DNA of 40,079 bases from Ghiorsea sp. (GTDB taxonomy: Bacteria > Pseudomonadota > Zetaproteobacteria > Mariprofundales > Mariprofundaceae): positions 1 through 40,079 of the forward strand of contig JALWRX010000103.1 of NCBI GenBank assembly GCA_027080505.1, in the 5' to 3' direction. A program made the translations under genes and the position numbers. Of this stretch, positions 616 through 33,585 are shown piece after piece. Numbering within the stretch: the stretch's first letter is position 1; the number at the start of each line of letters is the position of its first letter. The notes beneath the pieces are model-generated. The model ran no database searches and was not told the DNA's origin. It worked only from the letters and a program-made list of their open reading frames with translations.

Positions 616-673
616 GGGAAGAAAACTGGGGTGGACGACGGGACTCGAACCCGCGACAACCGCATCACAAGCC
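616..673 (-). repeat. Displaced 3' fragment of tRNA-His: distal attachment site of the island
   Basis: This 58-base stretch matches 33526-33585, which covers the 3' half of the intact tRNA-His gene plus about 12 bases beyond its CCA. It differs by two substitutions and two single-base gaps. The match runs from the anticodon region (CATCACAAGCC on the plus strand) through the T arm, acceptor stem and encoded CCA, then stops. The D arm and 5' acceptor strand are missing, so this is not a working tRNA. This geometry is expected when a tyrosine integrase crosses over in the anticodon region: the element restores the tRNA on one side and pushes the old 3' end to the far side. The changes fit decay after release from selection. 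Confidence 0.85.
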
Positions 674-911
674 AGTCATATCTACAATATTAATACGCAT
701 TATATGTCATAAATAGCTGTTTTATAATATATATTTTACTAATCATCCCTAATTTATTGTCAATATATCCCTATTAATAACTCAATACATGGGCTCATTT
801 TGAGAAAATAGAAACTACATGTTTGAAGAATTTAGACCACCAGCTTAGACTTCTAAATTATGATTTTTACTGATGTTATACTTTTCGGCGATTCTACTCT
901 TGCTTAGCTAA
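674..911. other. AT-rich island terminus before the recombinase pair
   Basis: About 240 bases separate the distal attachment repeat from the first large recombinase. The stretch is very AT-rich and has no credible gene. It probably holds the recombinase promoter and recombinase-binding sites, but I see no clear -35/-10 pair and no convincing repeat. Confidence 0.4.
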
Positions 912-3596
912 ATGAAAAAAGTAAGAAACCCAAAGCAAACACCTAATGAAAGTAGAGAATACCAAAATCTACTATCTTTTGCACGAGCAAACAAAGGTGA
1001 TGTTATAGCAATTCGGAAAATGCTCTGGCTCATTAATGCTCCCGCACATTTATATCTACTTATTCCAGTCTTAGTAAATTTAGATAGCATTGTTCAATTA
1101 GCACAGAGACGGCATCCTATCATTTTGTATGATTCTATACTTCCCAGTCTTCGCCCTTCAATTAAATTTATACTGCAAAACACCACAAAGCTTTCAGAGG
1201 TTATTGGCGCGCACATTAACCCAAATAACCTCAAGGAAAATGCGGTCGCAATGACAAGTAGAAGTTCTACACAACACCCTTGCCATGGCTATTGCCTTAC
1301 CACCCACCCTTTGTATGCAATGATACTAGACGATCAACAAGCATTACCACGTTTTCAAGAGACATACAGCTTTTTACAACTTCACATGATTAACGCCCAT
1401 GTAAAACTCTTAGCCGATGAAAGTAGCTTATGCCAATATGAAGATGCTGCAGAAGGCAAAGACTTTTTAGGGCCACTTCACAGCTCCATCACTGGAGCCT
1501 GCAGGAAGATGTTTTCTTTAACTGGAACTAAAGCCTACATACATTTAAAGTACCTATCAAAGGTTCCTATAAATGGAAATTTTAAGTATGTTAAACCTGA
1601 CCCGACACATGTTGTCAAAGCACTTCAACACACGCTTTTACTTTGCAATTACCATGGTCTAACTTTTGTCCAAGACCTAATAGATATTAACAAACACAAG
1701 CCCTCTATTGAGTTTCAAACATCCCAGTTTGGTCGCAACATTGCAGAAATACATAAAATGTATTCAAACACACTACAGGATAAGGGTATTCGGGAATTAG
1801 GAGCATTCCTGAATCGTGTGTTCATCGACCGCGAACCTAAGAAGAGTAAAGGTTCTGGGGCTAACCGAGGGACTATCCGCTTCGAAAAACATCTCGGCTA
1901 TACCATTTTATCCTCCACTTTCTTAAAATTTCATGTTTCCAGCGAAACTGGTGATAGTTTCACAATTGATCAAATTTCTGAAGACAACCCTTCAGATAGT
2001 GATTCAGTTGAAGATCTTCTATTTGGCGATGCAGCAACAGGTCAAGATATTTACCTTGTTAAGGACAAAGAGCCTGTTTATGAACGTTCATATCTTGCAG
2101 GCTATTTAGCAGCCCAAGGACAGGTTCGAAGACTCACAATGAACAATCAATTACTCAAAGGGCGCTGGAATACCATGACTCTTCATGAAGCCTCCAGTTT
2201 GACACAGCTTTGCATCAAAGAATTTAAGAAAAACATGCAGCTTGATATGACACCAGAAAACCTATTTTCTTTGAAAACTATCGTTCTGATTGAAACCATG
2301 TTTTGGACAGGAAGCTCGCTTGAGCGAGCAATCGATTTGCATATCCGCAAAAGTACTGGGTTAGAAAATGCAGAATTAACTTACATTGAAGATAAAAGGA
2401 CTTGGAGAATTGAAAATGACTTAATAAAACGAAAAATACCACCCACCATAGAACAGGAGGCTCTATGCAATAAGATAAATTTGACCATTAAACTGCCCGA
2501 TGTAACGCAATTAGGCGGTCACTTATTAACGCTAAAGCAGTTAAAACCCGAGCACCATTTGTTTCATAAAAATGCAACCGCGAAATATAAAAAGGAAATA
2601 TCTAAATTATTAAAAAAAATGCCCGAAGGATCAAGGGTCACACTAACTAGAATATCCCATTTCCTTTTCAATTTACTCATTGACCAGACTGGTGGTGACC
2701 TCACCTCGGCTTGCTTAATTACCGCAAAGCATCACTTTTTAGGTCGTACTTCTTTATATTATGCAACTTACGATAGAAGCAAGTTGGTAAACACTTACGT
2801 GAAAGCAGTCAAAACGTACTGTGAACTTATTAACCTTGAATGTCATTCTCAGTTATTTGATATACCTACACTTAATCCCAAGCAAGAGAATATTTGGGTG
2901 GGGAGTGATTTCTGTCCAACAACTAAGTCTGTCCAAAACCTTGTTAGTCACCTAAAGCTACAAATCACAAAACGCCCAAAAACAAATAACTTAAAAAACA
3001 TCATAAAGTATCACAATGCCTTTACAATCTATACCCAACAGATGATTGCTTATGCAACGGGGATTCGTGCTATCAAGAACCCTTTTGCTAACCAAGATGA
3101 TATTGATTGGCACTCAGGGCTAGCCAGCATCTCCGACAAAGATGATGAACACCTTTACCATTCGCGAATTGCATGGCTACCTGAAGTCGTAATCAAGCAA
3201 TTAGAACACTTTATACAACACCGTAAATTGATTATTCAGCAAGCTAAAAAAATTGATAAAGGGTTAAGAACAAGTGATTTACCTTTCTTTTTCCTCCTTA
3301 ATGAAGATTTTGAACCCCTTGACTTAAAGCCATCAAGTTTATCACCATATTTAAACACTGTTTTTCCGTTACCTGCCAACGTGAACAGGCGTTATGTTCG
3401 CTCACAGCTAGCAGGTAAGGGGTGTCCTGTAGAAATTATTCAATGTTTTATGGGTCACTGGGCGCGAGGAGAAGAGCCGTGGAGTAAACACTCATCATTT
3501 TCATTTGCTGAGTACCTCAGACAAATAAGAAAGTTCATTCCACCTATTTTAAAAGAGCTCAGATGGCAGGCTCGTAAAAGCCACTTAGCCTCATGA
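912..3596 (+). CDS. Large tyrosine recombinase-like protein, first of a tandem pair
   Basis: This 894-residue protein has no obvious signal peptide or membrane segment. The last 200 residues resemble a tyrosine recombinase catalytic domain: an arginine in a TGIRAIKNP context (about residue 716), RRYVRSQ in place of the usual HxxR box (about 824), MGHW (about 847), and a tyrosine in a FAEYLRQ context (about 866). The roughly 700 residues before this are unrecognised and far longer than the arm and core-binding domains of ordinary integrases. The stop codon overlaps the next gene's start in an ATGA, so the two are probably co-translated. No strong ribosome site precedes the ATG at 912. It may belong to one of the multi-recombinase systems found at island edges, but I cannot place it in a named family. 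The base composition looks more AT-rich than the hydrogenase genes. Confidence 0.7.
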   Translation: MKKVRNPKQTPNESREYQNLLSFARANKGDVIAIRKMLWLINAPAHLYLLIPVLVNLDSIVQLAQRRHPIILYDSILPSLRPSIKFILQNTTKLSEVIGAHINPNNLKENAVAMTSRSSTQHPCHGYCLTTHPLYAMILDDQQALPRFQETYSFLQLHMINAHVKLLADESSLCQYEDAAEGKDFLGPLHSSITGACRKMFSLTGTKAYIHLKYLSKVPINGNFKYVKPDPTHVVKALQHTLLLCNYHGLTFVQDLIDINKHKPSIEFQTSQFGRNIAEIHKMYSNTLQDKGIRELGAFLNRVFIDREPKKSKGSGANRGTIRFEKHLGYTILSSTFLKFHVSSETGDSFTIDQISEDNPSDSDSVEDLLFGDAATGQDIYLVKDKEPVYERSYLAGYLAAQGQVRRLTMNNQLLKGRWNTMTLHEASSLTQLCIKEFKKNMQLDMTPENLFSLKTIVLIETMFWTGSSLERAIDLHIRKSTGLENAELTYIEDKRTWRIENDLIKRKIPPTIEQEALCNKINLTIKLPDVTQLGGHLLTLKQLKPEHHLFHKNATAKYKKEISKLLKKMPEGSRVTLTRISHFLFNLLIDQTGGDLTSACLITAKHHFLGRTSLYYATYDRSKLVNTYVKAVKTYCELINLECHSQLFDIPTLNPKQENIWVGSDFCPTTKSVQNLVSHLKLQITKRPKTNNLKNIIKYHNAFTIYTQQMIAYATGIRAIKNPFANQDDIDWHSGLASISDKDDEHLYHSRIAWLPEVVIKQLEHFIQHRKLIIQQAKKIDKGLRTSDLPFFFLLNEDFEPLDLKPSSLSPYLNTVFPLPANVNRRYVRSQLAGKGCPVEIIQCFMGHWARGEEPWSKHSSFSFAEYLRQIRKFIPPILKELRWQARKSHLAS

Positions 3597-6500
3597 TTGA
3601 CCGAACATTTATTGATACCCTAGATAACACCTCTATCCAACCCATTTGGAATATGTCTTGGTGTAATCCATCTCATGACCTAAAATTAGCAAGAGATGCA
3701 CTCATCCCTGTTTTACAGGACTGCAACTTAGAAATTGCTCACTTTATTCTAACCCTCCAAGATCAATCTGGTTTCAGTTGGGTAGATCATTTTCATTATT
3801 CGGCTATTAAACGTTATGAATTTTCTCAGGATGATACCGATAACCTTGTAGATTACTTATTCTCCATAGAACCATCATCAGTTGCCGTAAAACAAATCGT
3901 GGTATTGGGTATTGTTTTAGAACAAGGAAATCGTATTAGTGCTTGGAAGATACCACTACCACCTCACCCCTTTCTTATCCGCCCAGAATCCAACCCTTGG
4001 GCAAACAACCCACTTAAAACTGCTAAATATGGTCGGTTATATGCTGACGTAGTTACCAAGTCACTAGAACTAGGGTATTTTCTTAGTGACCAAGCTATCA
4101 TTGGCAGAATTTTAGTGGCTGCAGTTACGCGAGGTGGCTTACTACAAAGAAATGCCTTGGAAGCTTTCCTTAAACAAATGGGGCAACCCATTCATGTTAT
4201 TAATAATATTTCATCCATTGACATATCTCTACGCTATAGAGGCCAGGATGACCAAGAGCATAGGCGCTGGTTTATCGACCCTCTAACCGAGTCCCTACTG
4301 CTGCAAAGTTCATTAACCAACTTAGAATCCAACTCTGAACCATGGCCTTTCATCAAAACATTCTTCCAAGAATGTGGACTAAAGGGCGCAGTAATGCCCA
4401 AAACGATTACTAAATTCTTAAAGTGTGTGTCCGACGATATCGGACAGAAAATTACACCCTTTCTAACTCAATATGCAACACGAAGAAATACATCTCACTC
4501 TCTCACCCATGATACATGGTTGAGGCTGAACAATTTAAGTAGTACCAACCATACCACGGAAGTTTACGATATAGAGGTTCTCTCTGAATCTGGCGAGGAA
4601 AACCCAAAAACTTTTGGGCACAGTGTATGGAGTCAGCCCATCAGGGAAGCATTACGCTGCAATAAAAAATCTGATGCACTGTCTAAATTGAAAATTATCA
4701 CCAGCCAGCAAAGTTCAGATACGTTATTTAAATATATTTCTGAGTTTGCCATCCACCTCATTCAACACGGCTCCTTTTTTCAAAAAGAACTAACAATTGG
4801 CACCATTCAAAACTATGTAAGCAGGCTCACCATAAGATTATATGGTGTAGTCAGTCATATTGATATAATCACACTAAATATTGAGGCTTTCGAAGATATT
4901 TATACGCAAATACTTGAAGAAGAAGCTGGGTCTAAAAGAACCATATCCAGAATACTACGTGAGTTTCATAATTACTTAAGTTTAACCTATGAAGTTCCAA
5001 AGATTGAAAATTCAGTTTTGGGTATTGGTAACTCCCTATGCCCCGTTGATGCAAATATTATCAACCTTGAAGAGCTTCTTGCTACGAACACTGCACTCGA
5101 AAAAAGCGATTTATATTTAATTCACCAAGACCTCAACACTATTGCAAAATTAATGACCTATTTAGCCTTCTTTTGCGGCTTTAGACGCAGTGAAATTCTA
5201 AAGCTTCGCTTAATTGATATTCAAGGTAACTATGAACCAGAAATTCTGGTACGCCCACACGCATCTCGTCGGCTAAAAACAAGAAGCTCTGAACGTAGAA
5301 TACCAATCCACGGGCTTCTTCCTCACCAGGCTTTAAAAGCTTTCATGAAATGGGTTTATAAAAGACGAAAACAAGAGAGTCATACCAAATACTCGGAATA
5401 TGTATTTAGTGTACCAGAGAGAAATTATGCCTTTGTACCCGAAGAAGTCATTTTTCCAGCTATTCACCAAGCATTACGTTTTGCGACTGGTGATGAAAGG
5501 TTAAGGTTTCATAGCCTCAGGCACTCATGCGCATCATGGACTTTGCTTCGATTATTGATTTCTGAACAGGGTGCACCAAAACTTTTCTTTGAATCAATGC
5601 CAAAAACAGCCTTATGGCTCGTTAAGTCTGCAAGATTAATACAAACTTTATATGGCTCAAACCAACCCACCCGCAAACATTTGTATCATATCACTGCAAT
5701 GCTTGGTCATGCCAACCCTAGCGTTACACTAGAGCATTATATCCACTGGTGTGACATCATGCTCAACCATAGTCTAGAAAAAGCATTAAACCCCATAGAC
5801 AAAAAAGTATGGCTACGACTAAGCAATCTCCCCTCTACCACAACATACCGCCTATTAAAGCAAGGGGGTGCTTTAGAGATACAAAAAAGACTCCGCAAAC
5901 AGTACCTAGATAAAATCATAGAATTTAAAAATGAGAAAAATAAACCTCAGAAAATAGCAGCTTCTAAAACAAACCTTAGCTACCTGTTACTTATGCGAAC
6001 ATGGAAACTTCTCTACCTACATAGCAACAATGCCATCCCCATTGATACTTTAGCAGAGCGCTACGCCTTTTCCGAACAAGAGGCAAAGAAAATAGTTCGT
6101 AAAACAAAAAAACTGCTCGCAGGAAATTTGACTTCTAATAAACCCAAGTTCCGAATGATGGTATCTAAAGACGGTTACGGACTACTCTGCCCTCGCAGGC
6201 CAACCACACATCAAGGTAAGACTTTAGCTGAAGATTTTACACGCAAACTACACAACCTGCTAGCAAACTCTGATACAAAAAAAGACTTTGAGTTTCTACT
6301 AAAATGCTACCTTAACAATGCTCGCCATGCTCCTAATGAAATATTATTTAAAAATGCGAAAAACGCACAAAGATTTTATCAAATACTACAAAATATTGGC
6401 ATAGCGAAAAAGTATATATTCTTAACTTGGCATCACGGTAAAGATATCAAAGGGCTAAGCAATACGAAACGCAAACAATATTGGAGAAGTGCTTTAAAAT

Positions 6501-6673
6501 TATCAAAAAATAAAAAGATTCACTCCAAACGAATCAACAGTCGTCCATTCGGAGAGTATGGTAAATTAAGTATTCGAATACTTGATTACTTAAATGATGA
6601 CAGCACCATCACGCAATCAACTGAAGCCTTTCGGTTCGTCTTTCTCATGTACAATATAGCAGCTTCTAGGTAG
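3593..6673 (+). CDS. Large tyrosine recombinase (phage integrase family), second of a tandem pair
   Basis: This 1026-residue protein has a recognisable tyrosine recombinase core in its middle: GFRRSEIL (catalytic Arg near residue 530), HSLRHSCASW (His-x-x-Arg box near 638), and LGHANPSVTLEHY (His near 704 and the likely nucleophile Tyr near 716). A tail of about 300 residues rich in Lys and Arg follows the tyrosine, and about 500 residues precede the core. Both extensions are unusual. It would break and rejoin DNA in the cytoplasm, probably with the protein encoded just upstream, whose stop overlaps this start by four bases (ATGA). It ends facing tatA on the opposite strand. The recombinase call is firm; the target site and the need for a partner are inferred. 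Confidence 0.8.
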   Translation: MIDRTFIDTLDNTSIQPIWNMSWCNPSHDLKLARDALIPVLQDCNLEIAHFILTLQDQSGFSWVDHFHYSAIKRYEFSQDDTDNLVDYLFSIEPSSVAVKQIVVLGIVLEQGNRISAWKIPLPPHPFLIRPESNPWANNPLKTAKYGRLYADVVTKSLELGYFLSDQAIIGRILVAAVTRGGLLQRNALEAFLKQMGQPIHVINNISSIDISLRYRGQDDQEHRRWFIDPLTESLLLQSSLTNLESNSEPWPFIKTFFQECGLKGAVMPKTITKFLKCVSDDIGQKITPFLTQYATRRNTSHSLTHDTWLRLNNLSSTNHTTEVYDIEVLSESGEENPKTFGHSVWSQPIREALRCNKKSDALSKLKIITSQQSSDTLFKYISEFAIHLIQHGSFFQKELTIGTIQNYVSRLTIRLYGVVSHIDIITLNIEAFEDIYTQILEEEAGSKRTISRILREFHNYLSLTYEVPKIENSVLGIGNSLCPVDANIINLEELLATNTALEKSDLYLIHQDLNTIAKLMTYLAFFCGFRRSEILKLRLIDIQGNYEPEILVRPHASRRLKTRSSERRIPIHGLLPHQALKAFMKWVYKRRKQESHTKYSEYVFSVPERNYAFVPEEVIFPAIHQALRFATGDERLRFHSLRHSCASWTLLRLLISEQGAPKLFFESMPKTALWLVKSARLIQTLYGSNQPTRKHLYHITAMLGHANPSVTLEHYIHWCDIMLNHSLEKALNPIDKKVWLRLSNLPSTTTYRLLKQGGALEIQKRLRKQYLDKIIEFKNEKNKPQKIAASKTNLSYLLLMRTWKLLYLHSNNAIPIDTLAERYAFSEQEAKKIVRKTKKLLAGNLTSNKPKFRMMVSKDGYGLLCPRRPTTHQGKTLAEDFTRKLHNLLANSDTKKDFEFLLKCYLNNARHAPNEILFKNAKNAQRFYQILQNIGIAKKYIFLTWHHGKDIKGLSNTKRKQYWRSALKLSKNKKIHSKRINSRPFGEYGKLSIRILDYLNDDSTITQSTEAFRFVFLMYNIAASR

Positions 6674-6753: not shown

Positions 6754-6912
6754 CTATAAATCTGCCTTACCCTCATCTGTTTTAATATTTGTACGGAAAC
6801 TTTTAATACCTTTCGCAAGCCCTTCGCCAAGCCCTGGCAACTTTTTCGCACCAAACAATATCATCACAATCACTAAAATAAGTATTAACTCTGTTGTTCC
6901 TAAACCAAACAT
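6754..6912 (-). CDS. tatA: Twin-arginine translocase subunit TatA/TatE
   Basis: This short gene encodes 52 residues, from an ATG at 6912 to a TAG at 6754. The sequence starts [21 protein letters not shown], a membrane helix with the usual leading FG and the Glu found in TatA/E. It continues with the family hinge [20 protein letters not shown] and a short charged tail. TatA forms the pore-like part of the Sec-independent export system for folded proteins. The gene follows the nickel permease by 17 bases and is probably co-transcribed with it. Placing a Tat component at the end of a hydrogenase locus makes sense because the small subunit HupS carries a twin-arginine signal. No tatB or tatC is present, so the host must supply them. 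The C-terminal tail is shorter than in most TatA proteins and closer to TatE. Confidence 0.9.
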
Positions 6913-6929: not shown

Positions 6930-7643
6930 TTAAAGCACCAAACCTTCTACAAATCCAATCTCATACATCACAAACATACCCAAGGCTATTGTGCCCATTC
7001 CAATAGTAGTTTGAAAAGCTTGGTAAAAACGTGTCATTTTTTGAGCTGAGTGTCTAAGGGGAACCATAATCACCGTTGCCAACACAGCCATCCCAACCAC
7101 CGATCCAAAACCAAACAAAGCTATATATACCAACCCCATAAATGGCGACTCGACCGTTTGCAATGTAAGGATAATCAGTGCTGCTGATCCAGCCATACCA
7201 TGCATCATACCGACAAACAAAGATCGGACATGAAAGCCTTTTGGGTGCGTGTGTCCATGCGCCGATTTTTTGTGTGCACCTTCACCTTGATGTGAGTGCG
7301 CATGAAAGTGTTTAATGCCATCATCATGTTTATGCAAATGAAAATGAACACGCTCTTTGAACATTCGACGAATCACATCAATACCCAAAAGCACTAACAT
7401 AATACCCACAACAAACTCCAATGATAATGCTAGGGTATCTGGAATCACTGATGTTGAGTAAATAACGATAGAACCAAATATGAAGAGAGTTAAGGTATGC
7501 CCTAATCCCCATGTAGCACCAAGTTTCATTGCTTCTTTAAATGAACTCGTTCGCGTTGCCATCGATGCAACAGCAGCCACATGGTCTGCTTCTACTGCAT
7601 GACGCATACCTAGCAGGAAACCTAAAAGTAAAACACTTAACAT
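6930..7643 (-). CDS. Nickel/cobalt permease of the NicO/UreH type
   Basis: This 237-residue polytopic membrane protein has about six hydrophobic segments. The first helix carries [12 protein letters not shown], the nickel-permease signature (RHAxDADH type), and a second segment has a matching [11 protein letters not shown] motif. The loop in between (about residues 95-135) is rich in histidine, as expected for metal handling. It most likely brings nickel into the cytoplasm for HypA/HypB and the hydrogenase active site. The gene has its own sigma-54 type promoter at 7674-7689 and is followed by tatA, so nickel supply and export capacity may rise together when hydrogen is sensed. Cobalt transport cannot be excluded from sequence. 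Confidence 0.88.
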
Positions 7644-7673: not shown

Positions 7674-7689
7674 CGCAACTTACATGCCA
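7674..7689 (-). promoter_or_regulatory. Sigma-54 promoter before the nickel permease and tatA
   Basis: The minus strand reads TGGCATGTAAGTTGCG, with GG and GC separated by exactly 10 bases and a near match to TGGCAYR-N4-TTGCW. The expected start of transcription is near 7662, about 20 bases before the ATG at 7643. The HoxA-like activator encoded in the same locus is the likely partner. Confidence 0.75.
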
Positions 7690-7773: not shown

Positions 7774-10080
7774 TTACATGTTTGCTGCTGCAATCACAGC
7801 CTGCCCTAAAGATAAACCGCCATCATTCAACGGGTAGTTCTGGGGAATCATTACTTGAAAACCATCCTCATCAAGTCGATGAAACACACCCTCCAAAAGA
7901 ATTTTGTTTTGAAAAACACCGCCGCTTAATACTACTATACTGAGCTGTTTTTTCTTTAACAGAAAAGTAGCCCTCTGTGATACTGCATGAATCACAGTTT
8001 GATGAAACCGCATTGCAATTTCGGGTTTTGCTACCCCTGCTTCCAAATCATGTAATATAGCTGCCCACATGAATGACCAAGATAACCGAATCAACCCATC
8101 TTGCTTTATTTCACCCACAGGATAAGGCTCTACTGATGATGAACTTTCTTTACTTGCCAAGACTTCCAGTGCCATTGCTGCTTGACCTTCAAACGCAGCA
8201 CGTTCAAAACAAATATCAAGTGCTGCTGCGACGGCATCAAACAAACGCCCCATAGATGAAGCTTGAGGCGAATTTAACCCCTTATCACACATCACTTGTA
8301 GGTTATGCACAGGTTTCTTAGAAAGTTTTTGAATCAGGGGTAAATCCGCATACTTTTCTATAACATTATCCCACCCCAAGGCATTGAGTTGAGCAAAGGT
8401 ATTGCGCCATGGTTCATACATGGCCTTTGCACCACCTAACAAAGCTGCAGTTTGAATACTACTCACTCGATACGATGATTGATATGAAACATGCAAAAAC
8501 TCACCGCCCCAAAGCTCTCCATGCTCGCCCATTCCTAGCCCATCTAGTGCAATACCCAGCACTTCACTTCCTAATGGCAAACCACACTCAGCCATACATG
8601 CTGCAATATGGGCATGATGATGTTGCACTTCACTAACTTCCAAACCCTTTGTGGACGCATAGTGTTTACCCCATTGGGTCGAAAAATAATCAGGGTGTTT
8701 ATCAACAGAAATATGCACAGGCTCAAAATCATATAGTTTCTGGTAAAGTGTTAAGTTCTTTTGGTAGTCACTATGTACAGCAGTATTTTCTAAATCACCC
8801 ATGTGCTGTGACATAATCGCGTGTCCGTGCTGTAATAAACAAAATGTATTCTTGAGCTCACCACCCATAGCCAATATACCATGTGCATTTTCAAAGCCTT
8901 TGGGCAATAATAATGCTGAAGGTGAAAAGCCTCGTGCACGACGCATTAACCTAGGTTTCGCTGCCATAACTTTAATCACTGAATCATCTAAACGATTTAC
9001 GATATCCCGGTTATGCAATAAAAAACCATCGGCAATGCTTGAAAGTCGACCCATGGCATCATTATTATCAATACATTGTGGCTCTTCGCTAACATTGCCC
9101 GAAGTCAGCACGATGGGATTATCAATTATTGCCAAGAGTAAGTGGTGCAGTGGTGTATAAGGCAGCATAAAGCCCAATGTACTTTGTCCTGGTGCCACAC
9201 TCGGTGCAATAGCATAATTCGGTTTGGCATTTAACACCACAACAGGTGCTTCTACTCCTTGCAATAACAAGGCCTCCTCTTGTGAGACATCTGCATATTG
9301 ACGAACTTGCATTTCATCTTTGGCCATCATGGCAAAAGGTTTGCCAAACCTGCATTTGCGTTGCCTAAGTATATTAACGACCTCTTCATTGCTCGCATCA
9401 CATGCCAAATGAATACCACCCAAACCTTTGACTGCAACAATTTTCCCTTGCTTTATCCAAGCCGCCGCAGCCTCAATATTATTTCCAGCAACAACAACTT
9501 TTCCTTCCGCATCCAAAAACTGCAGTTGAGGCCCACAATCTGGACACGCATTGGGTTGGGCATGAAAACGTCGATTTTTGTGATTTTCGTATTCTTTTTG
9601 ACAAGCCGTACACATTTCAAATGAAGCCATACTTGTATTTTTTCTATCATACGGAACTTCTCGAATAATCGATAAACGTGGTCCGCAATGGGTGCAATTG
9701 GTAAATGGATATTGATAATGCCTGTCGGCTGGGTTGTTTACATCTTGCAAGCATGCAACACACGTTGCCGCATCCGCTGCCACACCTGTTGAAGTATTGC
9801 CATCCACACTGGCGAGAATCTTAAAACCTTGAACTTCGCAAGTCTTAGTTAAAGTAGTGGTGGAAACATGCTGCACTTTAGCCAGCGGTGGTGCTTTAGA
9901 GGTAACATCCTGTACAAATTGTTGCAGGGTAGCATCATCACCCCACACTTGAATACCTACACCTTGAGCATCATTCCATACTTCACCGTTGAGCTGAAAA
10001 GATTCGGCGAGGTTAGCAATAAACGGACGAAACCCGACACCCTGAACCACACCTCGCACACGAATTTTTATACCCTTCAT
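7774..10080 (-). CDS. hypF: Hydrogenase maturation carbamoyltransferase HypF
   Basis: HypF makes the cyanide ligands of the [NiFe] active site: it uses carbamoyl phosphate and ATP to carbamoylate the C-terminal cysteine of HypE. The 768 residues show the normal order. An acylphosphatase domain (GVVQGVGFRPF, residues 10-20) comes first, then a double zinc finger (CVACLQD, CTHCGPR, CTACQKE, CPDCGPQ, about 105-185), a YrdC-like domain, and a Kae1-like domain with HHHAHIAACMAE and LSGGVFQN motifs. The length is usual for the family. It starts 11 bases after hoxC and is separated from the nickel permease by 130 bases that hold a sigma-54 promoter. Confidence 0.97.
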   Translation of the reverse strand: MKGIKIRVRGVVQGVGFRPFIANLAESFQLNGEVWNDAQGVGIQVWGDDATLQQFVQDVTSKAPPLAKVQHVSTTTLTKTCEVQGFKILASVDGNTSTGVAADAATCVACLQDVNNPADRHYQYPFTNCTHCGPRLSIIREVPYDRKNTSMASFEMCTACQKEYENHKNRRFHAQPNACPDCGPQLQFLDAEGKVVVAGNNIEAAAAWIKQGKIVAVKGLGGIHLACDASNEEVVNILRQRKCRFGKPFAMMAKDEMQVRQYADVSQEEALLLQGVEAPVVVLNAKPNYAIAPSVAPGQSTLGFMLPYTPLHHLLLAIIDNPIVLTSGNVSEEPQCIDNNDAMGRLSSIADGFLLHNRDIVNRLDDSVIKVMAAKPRLMRRARGFSPSALLLPKGFENAHGILAMGGELKNTFCLLQHGHAIMSQHMGDLENTAVHSDYQKNLTLYQKLYDFEPVHISVDKHPDYFSTQWGKHYASTKGLEVSEVQHHHAHIAACMAECGLPLGSEVLGIALDGLGMGEHGELWGGEFLHVSYQSSYRVSSIQTAALLGGAKAMYEPWRNTFAQLNALGWDNVIEKYADLPLIQKLSKKPVHNLQVMCDKGLNSPQASSMGRLFDAVAAALDICFERAAFEGQAAMALEVLASKESSSSVEPYPVGEIKQDGLIRLSWSFMWAAILHDLEAGVAKPEIAMRFHQTVIHAVSQRATFLLKKKQLSIVVLSGGVFQNKILLEGVFHRLDEDGFQVMIPQNYPLNDGGLSLGQAVIAAANM

Positions 10081-17091: not shown

Positions 17092-17095
17092 CTGT

Positions 17096-22702: not shown

Positions 22703-22718
22703 TGCTACTACTTTCCTT

Positions 22719-23327: not shown

Positions 23328-23328
23328 C

Positions 23329-24415: not shown

Positions 24416-24426
24416 GGCAAAACTCC

Positions 24427-24863: not shown

Positions 24864-25181
24864 TCACTCCTTATTTACTTCAGCTTGCAAATGAGGCGGC
24901 AGCTGCGGGCCACGCTCAATTATATCTGCAAACAAATCATCAATACCTGTACCATCACTACCCATGGCTAAATTCACAGCTTCAAGGGCATTGGTGACTT
25001 GCAACGCTTGGTCTTCATCAATCACTTCTCGTGCTGCATCAAGAAATGTAATCACCCACGTTCCTACGGGCTGTTCACCCACAAGGTTCATATCTATATT
25101 TTTTTGTTGACCCATGCCTTGGCAATGAGCGACATGTTCACTTAGCACACTGACAACCTGCATTGGAATACCGAGGCACAT
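24864..25181 (-). CDS. hupF: HypC-like chaperone HupF
   Basis: This 105-residue protein starts MCLGIPMQV, giving the HypC-family cysteine at position 2. It is longer than HypC in this window and has an acidic tail after about residue 75, which is the usual mark of HupF. HupF protects and delivers the HupL precursor when oxygen is present. It overlaps hupD at one base. Confidence 0.92.
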   Translation of the reverse strand: MCLGIPMQVVSVLSEHVAHCQGMGQQKNIDMNLVGEQPVGTWVITFLDAAREVIDEDQALQVTNALEAVNLAMGSDGTGIDDLFADIIERGPQLPPHLQAEVNKE

Positions 25182-25927: not shown

Positions 25928-25944
25928 AGCATGGTATCTGCCAA
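25928..25944 (-). promoter_or_regulatory. Sigma-54 promoter before hupD
   Basis: The minus strand reads TTGGCAGATACCATGCTT, with GG and GC exactly 10 bases apart. The expected transcript start is near 25917, about 29 bases before the hupD GTG. This would drive the long hupD to hoxC/hypF run. Confidence 0.7.
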
Positions 25945-26140: not shown

Positions 26141-27097
26141 TTAGTTAAGACAACATTTTTTAAATTTTTTGCCACTGCCGCACAAACAAAGTTCATTTCT
26201 TCCTAACTTCTTAGACCCTCGAACTACTGTCGTAGAGCGCCAACCCATTGGTGCTACTCGCTCACCAGGCACCACATCTTTATCCACAATAGGAACATCC
26301 AAAGCCTCATAATCTTTGCCTTTTTGTAGCAACTTCCTATCAGGGTACAGCCACCAGCTTAGCTCCTCAAAAGGCGACCTCATAAAACCGTCAACTACAT
26401 TATCCTTTAACTTTAAGGCTTCTTGAAAGGGCTGAGCCAAGCAACCTGCCAAAGACTCATGGTTTAGCACCACAGGTTCGATAAGTTTATCCTCTATAGC
26501 TTGTGTAAGCTGTTGCTCCAACTCTTTAGGATGTAAATCATAGGCAATCAATGCCACTGCATCCCAAACATAGCTTGGTTGCCGCTCAAGCTTATCGACT
26601 AACAACTCCTCAAGGTATTGCATCACATCAGCCCTGCTAATGACATCCTCTTTCCATAGCACCATGAACGAATCCAATGCTCCCGCACGAATCCAAGGGT
26701 CTAACTTTTCATTTTCAACCACGCTTTGAATACTCTTGATGTCACCATCATATACTGAGGCAAGCAGTCGTCCGAGAGCTTCAGTAAACACCTCACCAGT
26801 AAGTGCTAATACCAGTTTATCTTCAATTGAAATCAACTGAATGAGTTTAGAAAAAGCCTCTTTCTCTCGGAAATACGCAAGTAAAAAGACAGATAGAATA
26901 TGTCGTATATATGCTTTCCCTTTAGCTTCGATAGACAATGGATTTTGAATAAAACCATCCATTTCTTTCAGTAAATAAGGGGCCAGTTCTTTTTTGTTTT
27001 CAAGCATCTCAACAAAATCACCTTGGCATGGTGGCATTTCAACTGACACTAACGCATCAAACAATGTTTCGGCTCCTCTCTTTTTTTCACTAGACAT
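26141..27097 (-). CDS. DUF1186 protein with C-terminal SEC-C zinc motif
   Basis: This 318-residue protein is mostly helical, with HEAT-like segments (residues 30-220, for example WIRAGALDSFMVLW and VWDAVALIAYDLHP), which fits DUF1186. The C-terminus has GRNELCLCGSGKKFKKCC, a complete SEC-C zinc-binding motif as in SecA. I chose the ATG at 27097, with AGGGG in front, over a TTG at 27112. The gene lies between the terminator of hupSLC and the hupD promoter, in the same direction, so it is set apart from both hydrogenase units. Its role is unknown; binding to nascent or exported proteins is a guess from the SEC-C motif. Confidence 0.8.
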   Translation of the reverse strand: MSSEKKRGAETLFDALVSVEMPPCQGDFVEMLENKKELAPYLLKEMDGFIQNPLSIEAKGKAYIRHILSVFLLAYFREKEAFSKLIQLISIEDKLVLALTGEVFTEALGRLLASVYDGDIKSIQSVVENEKLDPWIRAGALDSFMVLWKEDVISRADVMQYLEELLVDKLERQPSYVWDAVALIAYDLHPKELEQQLTQAIEDKLIEPVVLNHESLAGCLAQPFQEALKLKDNVVDGFMRSPFEELSWWLYPDRKLLQKGKDYEALDVPIVDKDVVPGERVAPMGWRSTTVVRGSKKLGRNELCLCGSGKKFKKCCLN

Positions 27098-27133
27098 ATC
27101 AACCCCTATCAAAAAACACTATACTTTAAACAT

Positions 27134-27198: not shown

Positions 27199-27915
27199 TC
27201 AAGGACGATTATCCTTGAACATCCGCCAACCACTAATCATTGTACTAACCATACTTTGTCTCGACATAATATCTTCACGAATGGCTGCATAAACATGAGC
27301 CATAATGAATACGATCAAGAACCACATACCTAAGTGATGGAATGTATGTACATCTTGGCTTTGTCCAAACAGCGGGATAACCCAAGAAGAGAACATATTA
27401 TACTGCCATGATCCCATACCAGTGCCCTCTCCATACAAGGCAAAACCTGTGATAATCATGAAAAATGTCCCAAACACAAACATGGTAAACATTGCCGCTT
27501 GTGCCAAAGGATTATGCCCTACACATTTAACAGACTCTTTTTCCAAGAAAGCATACCAACGAGCTTCATGAATCATACCTTTGATATGCTCTTTAGAAAC
27601 AGGAGGAATAAACAACTGTTTCGCATGGTGGTTACCCACAAGTGCCCAGTATATTCTTCCCAACATACCGACAGCTAAAACATAACCCGATGCAAAATGA
27701 GCAAAACGAATATACCCCATCAAGTAGCTTGAACTTGGGTCACCTGGCATCGTTGGCAACGGTGCACCAATAAAATAGCCCGTTACACACAGTACTGTAA
27801 TTGCTAATGCATTTACCCAGTGCCAAATACGTACTGGAGCTTCGTATACATAAACCGATTCGGTATGTTTAACAATGTCATGCGATGTGTCAGTTGTAAT
27901 TGAACTATCAGACAT
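27199..27915 (-). CDS. hupC: Hydrogenase cytochrome b subunit HupC/HyaC
   Basis: This 238-residue membrane protein with four to five helices anchors the hydrogenase to the periplasmic face of the membrane and passes electrons to quinone. Likely haem ligands are the histidines in PVRIWHWVNA, RFAHFASGY, HTFHHLGMW and IMAHVYAA. I chose the ATG at 27915 because AAGGAGAA lies just upstream; an in-frame ATG at 27939 sits before this site and is unlikely. It is the third gene after hupS and hupL, separated from hupL by 68 bases, and is followed by a terminator. Confidence 0.95.
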   Translation of the reverse strand: MSDSSITTDTSHDIVKHTESVYVYEAPVRIWHWVNALAITVLCVTGYFIGAPLPTMPGDPSSSYLMGYIRFAHFASGYVLAVGMLGRIYWALVGNHHAKQLFIPPVSKEHIKGMIHEARWYAFLEKESVKCVGHNPLAQAAMFTMFVFGTFFMIITGFALYGEGTGMGSWQYNMFSSWVIPLFGQSQDVHTFHHLGMWFLIVFIMAHVYAAIREDIMSRQSMVSTMISGWRMFKDNRP

Positions 27916-27983
27916 AATCAGTTCTCCTTGAATTTTCATGGCAGGTGGTCAAAAGACCACCTGCTAATAAATACGAGCACATA

Positions 27984-29795
27984 TTAGCGCACCTTAGCAC
28001 TAACAAGCTCTTCACCTTCTTCACTCATCACATGTGTTGAACAAGCAAGACAAGGATCAAAACTGTGTAAGTTACGAAGAATTTCTACTGGTTCTTCGGC
28101 GCGCTCAACTGGTGTACCAATCAAACAAGCCTCAAAGGCACCAATGTTTCCTTCAGGATCACGTGGTGAACCATTCCAAGTCGTTGGAACCACGCATTGA
28201 TAGTTCTCAATTTTACCATCTTTAATGCGAATCCAATGACCCAGCGCACCGCGTGGAGCAGCAGTAATACCGACACCCTTAGCTTCTTTTGGCCAAGTCG
28301 CAGGATCCCACTTTTCCATATTGGCTGTCGCAGTATCACCTGCTTTAATGTTATCCATCAGTCTATGCCAATCATCTACCATCATATCTGAGCAATATTG
28401 CGACTCAAGCGCACGTGCCAAAGTACGACCAATCGTAGATTGCAAAATTGGTTTTGCACCTAAATCGGTACCTGCGAGCGCATTAAATGCTGAAACACTT
28501 CGATGCACTTGGTCTTGCACATACTCAACACCTTGTGCATAAGCCAAGGTATAACGCGACAAAGGACCAACCTCAACGGCATGTCCACGCCAACGTGGTG
28601 CTTTAATCCAAGAGTATTTCGCATGTTCATCAATTTCTTCAATGTTGGTGTGAGTGCCTTTAGCAGAGCTAACATCATAATTGGGATCTGTGATACCGTC
28701 CCAAGGATGCAAACCTTTGCTTTCATCAGGATACTTATACCATGAATGATTCACAAACTCTTGAACTTGATCTGGATCACGTGGATCAACTTCCATCACA
28801 TTATCCCAGTTGTCATCAAGAATTACACCACCAGGAAGTTGGTCAGTAGATTTATCGTAATTCACTGTTGGGTAAGCGCCATAATCCATAACAGATTTAG
28901 CGCCAAGACCGCCGCCCCACAATTGCTTCTTGTAGAAACTAGCTATCGCCAACACATCAGGAATATAAACATTATCATTAAACGCTTTCATTTCATCAAT
29001 ACGTGCTTTAACAAAATTTAAACGTTCCATATTCAATGGTGCACCAGCAGCCATATCCCCATCCATATTGATTGCACATGGAACACCACCAACTAAATAG
29101 TTTGGATGTGGGTTTTTACCACCGAAGACAGTATGAAGTTTCACGAACTCTTTTTGTAAGTCCAAGGCTTCAAGATAATGCGTGACTGCCATCAAATCAG
29201 CCTCAGGACTTAACTTATAAGCAGGGTTATCCCAATAACCATTTTTAAACGGACCTAACTGTCCCGATTCGATGAACTTACGAATTCTTGTTTGTACATC
29301 TCGGAAATAACCAGGGCTTGAGTTCGGATGATTCGGACCAGTTAATTGCTGAAGCTTAGAAGTTGCTTTTGGATCAGCTTTAAGTGCATTCACTGGGTTT
29401 ACCCAGTCTAAAGCATGAAGATGATAAAAATGCACAACATGGTCATGAACCTGCAATGTTTTTGCCATCATTTCACGAATCAAAAATGCATTGTATGGGA
29501 TTTTAATATCCAACGCATCTTCCACTGCACGAACTGAGGTTAAAGCATGACAGCCTGTGCACACGCCACAAATACGCTCAACAAAAGCCCAAGCATCACG
29601 TGGGTCACGACCTTTAAGAATCACTTCTAAACCACGCCACATAGTTCCTGTGGATACTGCGTTTGTAATTACATTATTTGCATCTACGTTCACTTCGCAA
29701 CGCATATGCCCTTCAATACGCGTCACAGGGTCAACAACAACACGTTGTCCGCCAGTGTCTAAAGTATACCCATTCGGAGTTGTTGTTACGCTCAT
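27984..29795 (-). CDS. hupL: Membrane-bound uptake [NiFe] hydrogenase large subunit HupL
   Basis: This 603-residue catalytic subunit splits hydrogen at a nickel-iron centre in the periplasm. The two nickel-binding cysteine pairs are [10 protein letters not shown] (about residue 75) and DPCLACSTH (about residue 580). A tail of 15 residues follows the final histidine and should be cut off by HupD, unlike in HoxC. The sequence resembles the group 1d enzymes of Cupriavidus (HoxG) and E. coli HyaB. It overlaps hupS by one base (TAATG), so the two subunits are translated together. It has no export signal and must travel with HupS. Confidence 0.97.
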
Positions 29796-30883
29796 TATTT
29801 GTCTCCTTGATCTGCTTTATTCGTTGCAGATTTAATTGCTGAGGCTGCTGCATGCACAGCGATTGCGCCGCCTACAATAGCAGCTGCAGTTCCACCCACT
29901 TCATCGGCATTGGATTCAATACCAAACTGGTGAATGCCTGATAAACGGTCGTAAAAACTTCCTTTGTCCCAAAAACCATCTTCCGAACAACCAATACAGC
30001 CGTGTCCTGCTTGAATCGGGAATGACGTTCCCTCATTCCAACGAATGGTTGAGCAAGCATTGTATGTTGTTGGCCCTTTACAACCGACTTTATACAAGCA
30101 GTAGCCTTTACGGGCATATTCATCATCGTACTCTTCCACGAATTGCCCTGCATCAAAATGTGGGCGACGGTAGCATTTATCGTGAATACGCTGACTATAA
30201 AACATTTTCGGTCGTCCTTGACGATCCAGTGAAGGAATTTTGTCAAAAGTAATCATGTAGGCAATCACTGCTGTCATCACTTCCGCAATGGGGGGGCAAC
30301 CAGGAACCTTAATAATTGGCTTATTGGCAATACCTGGGTGTTTATGCGTAGGGACAGCATGTGTAGGGTTAGGTGAAGCCGCCTGAACACAACCCCAAGA
30401 TGCACAGGATCCCCAAGATATAATTGCCTTACAATGTTGAGATACTCGGTTTAACTGTTCCGAAAACGGCTTGCCTGCAATAATCATTGACATGCCATCT
30501 TGATTTAGTGGAGCATTGCCCTCAACGGCCAATAAAAATTGACCATCATATTTCTTAATCGTTTCTTCGATAATAGATTCAGCTTGGTGCCCAGCAGCAG
30601 CCATGATTGTGTCATCGTAATCAAGTGACAGCATTGAAAGAATAACATCTTTTGCTAAAGGATGAGCCGAACGAATAAAAGACTCAGAACAACATGTACA
30701 CTCTAACCCATGTAACCACAGCACAGGAAGCCTAGGTTTGGTTTCCATTGCATGTGCAATTTTTGGTGCGAAAGCGGGACTCAAACCCAATGATGCTGCC
30801 GTAAGGCTACAATATTTGAGGAAACTACGACGTGTAATTCCTTGCCTACGCATCACTTCATAAAACGTTTCTATCTTTGCCAT
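29795..30883 (-). CDS. hupS: Oxygen-tolerant uptake hydrogenase small subunit HupS
   Basis: This 362-residue precursor carries the iron-sulfur chain. The signal peptide contains the twin-arginine motif [11 protein letters not shown] and should be cut after IAHA. The proximal-cluster cysteines appear in LECTCCSES and WGSCASWGC. The extra Cys in TCC and the second Cys in the latter segment are the two added residues of the six-cysteine 4Fe-3S cluster that gives oxygen tolerance. A C-terminal hydrophobic helix (about residues 330-350) can anchor it to HupC. I chose the ATG at 30883 because TAGGAG lies five bases upstream; a frame from 30940 would start before the expected transcript leader. Confidence 0.97.
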
Positions 30884-30952: not shown

Positions 30953-30969
30953 AGCACCTTCAATGCCAA
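30953..30969 (-). promoter_or_regulatory. Sigma-54 promoter before hupS
   Basis: The minus strand reads TTGGCATTGAAGGTGCT with GG and GC exactly 10 bases apart. The expected transcript start is near 30942, giving a leader of about 59 bases to the hupS ATG. It should be switched on by HoxA when hydrogen is sensed. Confidence 0.75.
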
Positions 30970-31254: not shown

Positions 31255-31527
31255 TTACTCTGCTCCAACCACATAACAACCAAAGTGATTTGTTAACTGT
31301 TCATTGATTTCAGATATCATTAAATGCAGCATTTCTAGACGCTCTAAATCTTGGTAGAAGTGATAGTGATCCATTACCCAAGACTTTATAGCAGCATGGT
31401 TCGAATAAGCATTAGGGTAACCAAGTGCCAACACAAACTCTCTACCTCCATTGATATTCAGCTTAAGTATAATTGAAAAAGCCAAGTCATTTATGATGCG
31501 GCTATAGTTTATATATACATCACTCAT
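31255..31527 (-). CDS. Small hypothetical protein behind the integrase
   Basis: I do not recognise this 90-residue protein. It has no signal peptide or clear motif and is rich in Leu, Ile and His, with a likely helical C-terminal half (HFYQDLERLEMLHLMISEINEQL). Its ATG overlaps the integrase stop as ATGA and GGAGGAGAAAGC precedes it, so it is a real, translationally coupled gene. The position suggests a role in island maintenance or excision, which is only inference. Confidence 0.65.
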   Translation of the reverse strand: MSDVYINYSRIINDLAFSIILKLNINGGREFVLALGYPNAYSNHAAIKSWVMDHYHFYQDLERLEMLHLMISEINEQLTNHFGCYVVGAE

Positions 31528-32696
31528 ACGCTTTCTCCTCCATGCTGCTTTAGTAACCTTTCGAAGGCTGAACCATCTTGTCGGGTCAGGTTAGGGATAT
31601 ACCTGGAGTATGTGCGAAACAGCATCTCACTTGTGGTATGACCCATCTGGCGAGCAATCCACTCAGGGCTTTCACCCGCTGCTAACCATAGTGTCGCTGC
31701 TGTATGCCGTGTTTGGTATGGTCGCCTAGCCCTTAGTCCTAAGTGACGCAGTAAAGGATGCCAAACTCGCCTTGTAACATTTCGATGGCTCAGTGTACCA
31801 CCCTGCGTATTACAAAAGACGAAATCATTTTGCCCCGTTGCAGTCTGTTGCTCCTTTAAAGCTCTATAGACTACATCAGACATATCAATCGCACGGTATG
31901 AGCCATCATTCTTGGTATAAATCAGTTCATCCATCACCAATGCCTGACGAATCAGGATTTGTCGTCGCTCAAAATCTACATACTGCCATTGCAGCCCATC
32001 AATTTCTGATGTGCGCATCGCAGTAAAGAATCGAACAGTGTAATAATGCTTAAAGTCAGGGCGCACCCGATTTAAAATTAACATCACTTCTTCCAAGGTG
32101 AATGGCTCAACATCAGTACGAGGAACTTTAAGGGACTTGATTCCATGATAAGGCGAGCTAAAATCAAACCTGTTAGCTGCTTCATTGAGTATCATGCGCA
32201 ATGGCGTCATGATATGGTTGATTCGTGAAGCTGATAGAGATTTTCCACTTCGGTTCTGAACTTTGGCGAGAGAAGACCGAAATGCGAGAATATCTGTCTT
32301 GGTGATGCAGCTAACGCCTTTTTCACCAAACCATTCTAATAAATACTGGTCTAGAATATCCTGAACCCCAAGCTTATGGGTCTTGCGCCACTGAATACTC
32401 ATTTCATCATACCAAAGTGCGGCAAACTCTTTAAATGTAGGAGCATTTGATAGCCTTGTATGAATCCTGCTTTGTTGGTGTTCAAATTGTTGAACACGAG
32501 GGCTACTCGGAAAATATGTAGCATAATCAAATGCTCCCAAGGTCATCTCAGCTTCCATCTTATCTAAAACACGCTGTAATTTCTTGCGATTGGCGGGAGT
32601 GTCTGTAAGTTGAGTATACTCTCTACATCTCCTGCCCATATACTGAAAATCAAAGAAAAGTTTTTGATTATTACTTCTTGCTCTTACACTAGCCAT
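31524..32696 (-). CDS. Island integrase (tyrosine recombinase)
   Basis: This 390-residue protein begins with an Arm DNA-binding domain of the DUF3596 type (NQKLFFDFQYMGRRCREYTQL). A core-binding domain follows (about 85-190), then a catalytic domain with AMRTSEIDGLQW (Arg), YTKNDGSYRAI (Lys), PYQTRHTAATLWL (box II with Arg and His), and QMGHTTSEMLFRTYSRY (His and nucleophile Tyr). All catalytic residues are present, with Tyr in place of the first box II His, as is common in this group. It lies near the 3' end of tRNA-His and most likely catalysed insertion there. I chose the ATG at 32696; a GTG at 32708 would add four residues and overlap the excisionase gene more. Confidence 0.93.
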   Translation of the reverse strand: MASVRARSNNQKLFFDFQYMGRRCREYTQLTDTPANRKKLQRVLDKMEAEMTLGAFDYATYFPSSPRVQQFEHQQSRIHTRLSNAPTFKEFAALWYDEMSIQWRKTHKLGVQDILDQYLLEWFGEKGVSCITKTDILAFRSSLAKVQNRSGKSLSASRINHIMTPLRMILNEAANRFDFSSPYHGIKSLKVPRTDVEPFTLEEVMLILNRVRPDFKHYYTVRFFTAMRTSEIDGLQWQYVDFERRQILIRQALVMDELIYTKNDGSYRAIDMSDVVYRALKEQQTATGQNDFVFCNTQGGTLSHRNVTRRVWHPLLRHLGLRARRPYQTRHTAATLWLAAGESPEWIARQMGHTTSEMLFRTYSRYIPNLTRQDGSAFERLLKQHGGESV

Positions 32697-32925
32697 GGCA
32701 CACACCACCGTTACCCATAGGAATTATTACGTTCTGCGATTGTGACTGTTCATACATATCTTGCTCAATGGTTTCCCAGATATATAAAATCTTTCTTCCA
32801 CCAAATGGACGGAAATAATGAACGCCTTCAAGCAGCACCGAATCTTTTAAGCTGTCTCGAATAGTTCTTGGATCATATTTTATGCGCTGTGATAATTCCT
32901 CTGTTGTTAAATATGTTTCATTCAT
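32689..32925 (-). CDS. Excisionase-like small HTH protein
   Basis: This 78-residue protein has a winged-helix DNA-binding look: YLTTEELSQRIKYDPRTIRDSLK, then a FGGRKILYIWETIE wing. This pattern resembles Xis-type proteins that direct excision. I chose the ATG at 32925, with GGAG eight bases upstream; an ATG at 32967 has no site before it. It overlaps the start of the integrase gene, the usual arrangement for xis and int. Confidence 0.75.
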   Translation of the reverse strand: MNETYLTTEELSQRIKYDPRTIRDSLKDSVLLEGVHYFRPFGGRKILYIWETIEQDMYEQSQSQNVIIPMGNGGVCHG

Positions 32926-32946
32926 AATTTTTCTCCACTTAAAGTA

Positions 32947-32978
32947 TTCATATGAACTAATTTTCATTCATATATGAA
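32947..32978. repeat. Two palindromes in the xis leader
   Basis: TTCATATGAA (32947-32956) and TTCATATATGAA (32967-32978) are perfect palindromes with the same half-site, 10 bases apart, just upstream of the excisionase ATG. They may be protein-binding sites or mRNA structures in the leader. Confidence 0.4.
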
Positions 32979-33073: not shown

Positions 33074-33093
33074 ATTATCAAAAGGGATAAAAT

Positions 33094-33330
33094 ATGATTA
33101 GAATACGATTAACGCAGATGCTTGATGATAAAAGTTTCGAGGAAAAACGAAGGATTTCTCTCAAAGAGGTTGCACAAAAGACAGGGTTATCTCAGCCAAC
33201 TTTATCACGAGTTTCTAATATTCCAGGGTACAACACGAATACAGATACAATTAATGCGTTATGTAAATACTTTAATTGTTCACCAGGTGAACTTTTAGAG
33301 TTTTACCCTGATGAAAATGATTCAAAATAA
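33094..33330 (+). CDS. XRE/Cro-CI type regulator of the island
   Basis: This 78-residue protein is almost entirely a Cro/CI helix-turn-helix domain: ISLKEVAQKTGLSQPTLSRVSN, then INALCKYFNCSPGELLEF, which is standard for small XRE regulators. It is divergent from the excisionase and integrase genes, with an operator-like region in between, so it most likely represses or balances excision. No protease or dimer domain is present, so it is more Cro-like than CI-like. Confidence 0.9.
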   Translation: MIRIRLTQMLDDKSFEEKRRISLKEVAQKTGLSQPTLSRVSNIPGYNTNTDTINALCKYFNCSPGELLEFYPDENDSK

Positions 33331-33419
33331 CCAGAGCCTAAACACCTGTTCGGCATTGAAAAATAATTCTGGCTAATACTCATATAATTTACTCAGGTAT
33401 TGATAACCTGAAAACTTTA

Positions 33420-33452: not shown

Positions 33453-33462
33453 AATCACGCAC

Positions 33463-33494
33463 AAAAAAATAGATTTTCCCAGTTTTAGAAAATC
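33463..33494 (-). terminator. Terminator-like hairpin after the tRNA operon
   Basis: GATTTTC (33472-33478) pairs with GAAAATC (33488-33494), and on the minus strand the stem is followed by a T-rich run (33470-33463). It lies 44 bases after tRNA-His. The stem is AT-rich, so strength is uncertain. It is inside the island, so it would have replaced the original terminator. Confidence 0.5.
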
Positions 33495-33525
33495 CTTGTA
33501 ACAAGTTGATAATAAAGCATTATTT

Positions 33526-33585
33526 GGGAAGAACAACTGGGGTGGACGACGGGGCTCGAACCCGCGACCACCGGCATCACAAGCC
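33526..33585 (-). repeat. Proximal attachment repeat of the island (in tRNA-His)
   Basis: This is the right-hand copy of the direct repeat also found at 616-673. It covers the tRNA-His 3' half from the anticodon stem to CCA and about 12 bases beyond. The likely crossover is in or near the anticodon region, where the two copies stop matching. Confidence 0.85.

Follow-up and report, generated by a model that had tools for sequence, protein, structure and literature searches.

How did a complete hydrogen-oxidation locus come to lie between a tRNA gene and a fragment of that gene, and does it still pass between species? The host is a deep-sea iron-oxidising zetaproteobacterium of the Ghiorsea type, and the window analysed here is the entire 40079-base contig C103 of its genome (G000; 2.03 Mb in 134 contigs, 88% complete; other G numbers denote the relatives compared). 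Very probably, a stretch of ~33 kb within the window is an integrative genomic island at tRNA-His that carries a complete hydrogenase locus, and whose copies later exchange segments between species. Direct support comes from the island bounds, an empty site in a relative, the gene content, conserved promoter-type sites and a conflict between gene trees and the species tree.

Island bounds and an empty site at tRNA-His

The island is bounded by the following features.

616-673, minus strand: left repeat, consisting of flank and the displaced 3' end of tRNA-His (627-673); distal island boundary (alignment to tRNA-His, genome-wide match)
33538-33613, minus strand: intact tRNA-His, with the repeated core at 33538-33585 (tRNA call, repeat alignment)

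An earlier note on this DNA had described an intact tRNA-His with a same-orientation 3' fragment at the other end. Indeed, positions 616-673 align, in unchanged orientation, with tRNA-His on its 3' side; of these, 627-673 fall within the tRNA itself. The gene and the displaced copy of its 3' end bracket ~33 kb. The 47 bases of the repeat differ from the 48-base core by two substitutions and one deletion. Because the left repeat ranks second among matches to tRNA-His in the whole G000 genome (E 8e-14), it is not a chance likeness. On the intact side, tRNA-His, tRNA-Arg and tRNA-Pro together span 33538-33823. Recombinase-type genes stand at both ends of the island.

912-3596, plus strand: TR1, large tyrosine-recombinase-like protein of 894 residues (22-26% identity over part of its length to annotated plasmid integrases)
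3593-6673, plus strand: TR2, large tyrosine recombinase of 1026 residues (Pfam Phage_integrase, 1.4e-9; PHROG integrase)
31255-31527, minus strand: orf90, downstream of the integrase (weak homologue in G008)
31524-32708, minus strand: tyrosine integrase (Pfam Phage_integrase and Arm-DNA-bind_2; PHROG)
32689-32967, minus strand: putative excisionase (position; homologues beside related integrases at 6 other places)
33094-33330, plus strand: Cro/C1-type repressor-like gene (PF13443, 3.8e-16)

Both an integrase and an excisionase-like gene had been proposed beside the tRNA. The former is borne out by Pfam; the latter is assigned by position and homologues, its best family match (E 0.02, PHROG 'transcriptional regulator') not being significant. 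TR1 has no match in Pfam, PHROG or NCBIfam, and orf90 has none in the profile searches, PHROG included. TR1 and TR2 (912-6673) at the left end and the repressor-like gene are additions to the earlier inventory. Pfam or NCBIfam scans of 31 island genes revealed no relaxase or type IV secretion gene, the marks of an integrative and conjugative element, and we do not class the island as such an element.

In the relative G005, the DUF945 gene (97% identical over the part present in the window) is followed by ~300 bases, an intact tRNA-His, and then FolK and dNK. A search of the G005 genome found no HupL, the large subunit of the uptake hydrogenase. This is the arrangement foreseen in the earlier note for a relative lacking the hydrogenase, with tRNA-His directly next to DUF945. 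Consistently, the computed excision product, in which the window flanks are joined at the core, matches G005 at 96.0% over 1559 aligned bases with 36 gap columns. The tRNA with its 3' fragment, the adjacent integrase and the empty site in one relative place the ~33-kb stretch in the tRNA-integrated island type. The sister species G004, in which HupL was not found either, was rejected as a second empty site because its contig stops, 218 bases past tRNA-His, in sequence resembling an island end in G015 (42 bases shared at 81%).

In the mechanism we propose, the integrase would recombine the tRNA-His gene of the host with an island site that already bore a copy of this gene's 3' end. Integration would leave an intact tRNA on one side, and the 3' end that had belonged to the host would come to lie on the other, beside DUF945. 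The window's intact tRNA-His copy is identical to that of G008, and both left-repeat substitutions occur jointly in one of the 12 intact tRNA-His genes compared, that of G004. This pattern is what an exchange of 3' ends would predict; it concerns two positions, and the argument is limited by the fact that the G004 gene itself borders a probable island end.

HupL is present in 7 of the 16 genomes of the genus (G000, G002, G006, G007, G008, G012 and G015) and in 8 of the 74 genomes of the family, the eighth being G045. Other portions of the locus are carried by G001 and G010. Among the 15 congeners, only G008 and G010 have the integrase at 88% identity or more.

The hydrogenase locus and its predicted regulon

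From left to right, TR1 and TR2 are followed by the genes below, in the order given, all on the minus strand; after hupS come orf90, the integrase, the putative excisionase, the repressor-like gene and then tRNA-His.

6754-6912: tatA (PF02416, 2.8e-14; TIGR01411 over cut-off)
6930-7643: nickel-transporter-like gene (NicO, 26.6 bits, just under the cut-off of 27.7)
7774-10080: hypF (TIGR00143)
10092-11543: hoxC/hupV, large subunit of the H2-sensing hydrogenase (PF00374)
11540-12547: hoxB/hupU, small subunit of the H2-sensing hydrogenase (profile match)
12547-13890: hoxJ, PAS histidine kinase (profile match)
13904-15421: hoxA, sigma-54-type response regulator (profile match)
15394-17232: hypX (formyltransferase and enoyl-CoA-hydratase domains); true start likely near 17097, judging by homologues of 567 residues
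17096-20778: hypE, hypD, hypC, hypB, hypA (profiles)
20771-21949: hupK/hoxV-like gene (profiles)
21953-22756: membrane protein with one CxxCH motif (haem-c; motif read from sequence)
22719-24858: hybE, rubredoxin, hupH, hyaE (profiles)
24864-25888: hupF (hypC-like) and hupD, maturation endopeptidase (profiles)
26141-27112: DUF1186/SEC-C gene (profile match)
27199-27939: hupC/hoxZ, cytochrome b (PF01292)
27984-29795: hupL, uptake hydrogenase large subunit (profile match)
29795-30883: hupS, uptake hydrogenase small subunit with a twin-arginine translocation (Tat) signal (TIGR01409; aligned to HoxK)

Profiles thus confirm the full locus of enzyme, maturation proteins, sensor, kinase and activator that had been read from the letters. 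The proposed TatA is real, and the proposed nickel uptake is a weak call. The CxxCH membrane protein has no family match in the Pfam and NCBIfam profiles.

In the PDB, HupS is closest to HoxK of the membrane-bound hydrogenase, and the two share the cysteines of CTCC and SCASWGC, positions that we take to mark the oxygen-tolerant type. By these extra cysteines, the Tat signal and the cytochrome b partner, HupSL is predicted to be a group 1d oxygen-tolerant uptake [NiFe]-hydrogenase. HoxC terminates at CTVH, lacking the C-terminal extension present in HupL, and the profile search found no Tat-signal match in HoxB; both are presumably marks of a sensor hydrogenase. Together with the linked PAS kinase and sigma-54 regulator, these features point to HoxBC as a group 2b regulatory hydrogenase. 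Judging by homology, HupSL would oxidise H2 and hand the electrons via cytochrome b (HupC) to the quinone pool, while the hydrogenase-like sensor HoxBC and the kinase HoxJ would control the activator HoxA. With sigma-54, HoxA would then fire hupSLC, the presumed hupD-hyp operon and the nickel-tatA pair. Sites of the matching type precede these three units.

7675-7689, minus strand: sigma-54-type site before the nickel gene, kept in 8/9 genomes (not G002)
25929-25943, minus strand: sigma-54-type site before hupD, kept in 7/7 genomes
30954-30969, minus strand: sigma-54-type site before hupS, kept in 6/6 genomes

Because these conserved sites precede hupS, hupD and the nickel gene, and TGGCA-N7-TGC sites precede none of the 33 other window genes, we infer a three-promoter HoxA/sigma-54 regulon of hupSLC, hupD-hyp and nickel-tatA. 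A site of this type is also visible before hupS of G045. This looser pattern, TGGCA-N7-TGC, occurs 8 times in the window against 0.78 expected from single-base shuffles; three occurrences are the sites above, and five lie elsewhere inside genes. The spacing of the pattern was set after the hupS upstream sequences had been viewed, so hupS is not an independent test; the hupD and nickel sites came from a window-wide scan.

Three minor features of the locus were also seen. In all seven HupL-bearing congeners (with contig breaks in G012 taken into account), as in G045, the DUF1186/SEC-C gene stands between hupC and hupD; it was seen in none of the 76 loci compared from other lineages, a set with many partial clusters. 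The nickel gene is oriented as hypF in G000, G001, G002, G015 and G045, and oppositely in G006, G007, G008, G010 and G012. In 8 of 9 genus genomes tatA adjoins the nickel gene.

Locus context in relatives and mosaic history

On a single contig, the locus touches tRNA-His or its fragment in four of the seven HupL-bearing genomes (G000, G008, G002 and G015); one genome contradicts this placement. G008 has the locus, a 92% identical integrase and tRNA-His on one contig, with TR2 retained only from residue 387 onward. In G010 an 89% identical integrase lies at tRNA-His, followed by IS21-type genes, and the hydrogenase part is on a separate contig. The contigs of G007 and G012 stop too early to show this context; the hupS-side contig end of G007 overlaps the end of its tRNA-His contig by 118 bases at 99%.

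G015 shows a different arrangement. Its contig (L080:1-1335) runs from hupS through a repressor-like gene, a 48-base tRNA-His 3' fragment and 236 bases to the start of TR1 (71%), where it ends; the corresponding spacing in the window is 238 bases. The repressor-like gene was recognized by eye and by its 76% likeness, over 70 bases, to the integrase end of G010. On the G015 tRNA-His contig (L082:1-299), the first 225 bases are 89% like the integrase-side end in G008. G015 thus apparently holds two islands in tandem, on two contigs that are not joined.

We compared the history of the locus with a species tree built from rpoB, gyrA and secA, and core identities below refer to these three genes only. 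The tree has the form (G012,(G008,(G005,(G000,G004)))), these nodes having bootstrap values of 96-100. In the alignment, G012 and G003 cover less than half of the columns; gyrA is missing from G000 and rpoB from G012. In approximately unbiased (AU) tests, trees of hydrogenase-locus genes reject the species grouping in five of six trials: HupL+HupC (p 5.6e-6), HypABDE (9.7e-51), HypF (7.5e-47) and the nickel gene twice (9.2e-8 and 7.1e-77). The hyp and hup phylogenies, which the earlier note had singled out as a check on transfer, therefore conflict with the species tree.

Identities between pairs of species show the same conflict segment by segment. HypA, B, D and E are 92-95% identical between G008 and G015 (core 81%), HoxC 95% between G012 and G006 (core 80%), HypF 94% and the nickel gene 98% between G007 and G010 (core 86%), and HyaE 95% between G006 and G007 (core 84%). 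Mis-binning is ruled out for the G008-G015 likeness, because each stretch lies inside one contig. For G000 itself, comparison with the close relatives G008 (0/145) and G012 (0/70) gave no 900-site stretch above the core maximum. Against G006, G007, G015 and G002 combined, 41/533 exceed it, the best being the slowly changing HypD or HupS-HupL, and we make nothing of them. Between G000 and G008, HypF and the nickel gene are 67% identical and HupS, HupL, HupC, HupD and HyaE 87-88% (core 90%); the two ends of the locus thus differ in their history. Exchange of locus segments between species appears to have taken place, probably by recombination between copies residing in different species. Of the earlier proposal that the locus moved as one unit, the tRNA-bounded island stands, and the single unit is not fully supported, the histories of its segments being different.

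Base composition, another check proposed earlier, lends no support to a foreign origin. G+C is 42.4% in the hydrogenase part, 43.8% in the right flank and 42.2% and 41.9% at the rpoB and secA loci; both island ends are at 38.2%, but the left flank is at 37.9% too. We rejected foreign composition as evidence of transfer, since the hydrogenase part lies within the host range of 41.9-43.8%. HupL is 85-86% identical to gammaproteobacterial homologues, and in a tree made by a quick method, supported by the Shimodaira-Hasegawa-like approximate likelihood ratio test (SH-aLRT) only, Ghiorsea forms one clade inside a mainly gammaproteobacterial set. Because most listed Alpha- and Betaproteobacteria reach ~73-80%, this likeness alone is weak proof of transfer, whose direction we infer.

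Several observations weigh against the island reading. The left repeat is decayed relative to the intact core. G005 is a single draft genome (90% complete, 6% contamination), and its site would look the same had an ancestor lost the island by precise excision. For HoxA-HoxJ-HoxB the species grouping is not rejected (AU p 0.09). Carriers without the left tRNA fragment, which the earlier note had set against an island, were found in G008, which has the integrase end with no fragment in the 75.9 kb searched left of tRNA-His and in which no DUF945 was found, and in G002, where hupS lies ~260 bases from an intact tRNA-His with no integrase. In G006 the locus is away from tRNA-His, adjoining the gene that stands left of DUF945 in G005, and no hydrogenase gene was found in 10.9 kb on that side of its tRNA-His.

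The placement in G002, the locus of G015 lying outside the second island, and the position beside the same left-hand gene in both G006 and G012 would all suit a hydrogenase that is an old chromosomal neighbour of tRNA-His, alongside which unrelated elements landed, its place within the repeats being accidental. We consider this unlikely: the window locus lies within the repeats, both locus and insert are missing from G005, the tRNA fragment of G015 is separated from hupS by a repressor-like gene such as stands at the integrase end, and the gene trees conflict with the species tree. A stronger contender, to which we give somewhat less than an even chance, is a single entry into an ancestor, followed by fixation as a non-excising remnant whose segments spread by homologous recombination only. 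The decayed left repeat, the restriction of the close integrase to two congeners and the lack of relaxase or secretion genes among those scanned fit such a remnant. Against it, the reading frames of the integrase, putative excisionase and repressor are open in the window, HupL is missing from the sister species G004 and G005, and in another genus one genome carries the locus next to genes of integrase type. An integrative island with later exchange between species remains our preferred reading.

Side observations were made near the locus or tRNA-His in three relatives. In G008 (L076:4199-7609), the usual left neighbour is separated from the locus by a gene of cytochrome-oxidase-subunit-I type and an HPP membrane gene. 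Homologues of the membrane haem-c protein occur in two genomes without HupL, 57 bases from tRNA-His in G011 (L100:2106-2834) and after a patatin-like gene beside tRNA-His in G003 (L099:7375-8106). That these two genes are remnants of the sister species' island was not supported, the G011 gene being 85% identical to that of G003 and 74% to that of G015.

Known systems and related islands

Hydrogenase-bearing islands are already known, and the novelty claimed in the earlier note is smaller than thought. In the same genus, the hydrogenase cluster of Ghiorsea bivora TAG-1 is likewise flanked by an integrase and a recombinase, and a common, horizontal origin has been suggested (PMC6501319); the accessible part of that account names no tRNA site, empty site, tandem island or exchange between species. 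CMGI-2 and CMGI-3 of Cupriavidus metallidurans CH34 resemble the window in being islands with hydrogenase and hyp operons; unlike it, they are, in the portion of the source available, of Tn4371 type with a conjugative module and no H2-sensor hydrogenase, and their hydrogenase genes are thought to have been delivered by insertion sequences (PMC2864759). Cluster II of the vent bacterium Hydrogenovibrio SP-41 also has a group 1d and 2b region thought to be horizontally acquired; it differs in its mixed gene orientations and in taking another position in H. thermophilus MA2-6, and the available text names no tRNA boundary (PMC6501319). The membrane-bound and regulatory hydrogenase (MBH/RH) locus of pHG1 in Cupriavidus necator H16, the source of HoxK, is similar in gene arrangement to TAG-1 (PMC6501319, as far as available); unlike the window's, it is megaplasmid-borne.

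Ghiorsea hydrogenases have been placed next to a gammaproteobacterial metagenome-assembled genome (MAG), with transfer proposed, and H2 availability has been proposed to drive niche division among Ghiorsea (PMC10734525, in the part available). Of two Ghiorsea-type strains living together on vent shrimp, RB_MAG_00008 has hydrogenase genes and the second MAG does not (PMC8042907, likewise in part). The accessible text of PMC9789115 holds nothing on such a hydrogenase island, and a literature search returned nothing combining hydrogenase, tRNA-His and genomic island. The exact tRNA-His site, the empty site, the tandem array and the reassortment were not found in print; the Ghiorsea species description (doi 10.1038/ismej.2017.132) may mention parts. 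With its bounds and an empty site identified, the island provides a mechanism for the patchy presence of hydrogenase in Ghiorsea; polymerase chain reaction at a single tRNA gene could show which populations have, lack or trade an entire energy metabolism.

Beyond the genus, one of the 11 searched genomes of genus g4, G045, has the locus in the same gene order on a 41.9-kb contig (C46; L259-L261), with HupL at 91%. Homologues of the integrase (50%), the excisionase (58%) and, weakly, the repressor (30%) lie on its hupS side. A tRNA-Arg-like sequence was also seen there by eye; it includes one N, and ARAGORN did not call it. Relative to hupS, the integrase set has a different orientation from that in the window. 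The other side has genes of the TatB and TatC types, genes resembling TR1 and TR2 (22-23%, over part of the length) and, by eye, a tRNA-Met-like 3' end. The HoxA-J-B-C segment of G045 groups with G000, G008 and G006 against G015, G007 and G002 (100%). Nesting of its HupSL inside Ghiorsea, seen in the best tree, was not significant (AU p 0.234).

We see about even chances that H2 oxidation in Zetaproteobacteria is a shared, recombining cassette. Two-module tRNA-targeted islands (an integrase-excisionase-repressor module at one end, TR1-TR2 at the other) would deliver a ready-wired regulon whose segments are swapped by species of the genus and at least one other genus, H2 use being gained, lost and reshuffled as a step in niche change. 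Among related islands of this two-recombinase-module kind, more than one tRNA may serve as the target. Sets of integrase, excisionase and repressor genes, with TR-like matches close by, also occur in G064, G070 and contig C59 of G000 itself (L262, L263, L264), with no hydrogenase match in the 19 kb read. Accompanied as they are by tRNA-Met-like or tRNA-Arg-like sequences, these sets possibly belong to one island family.

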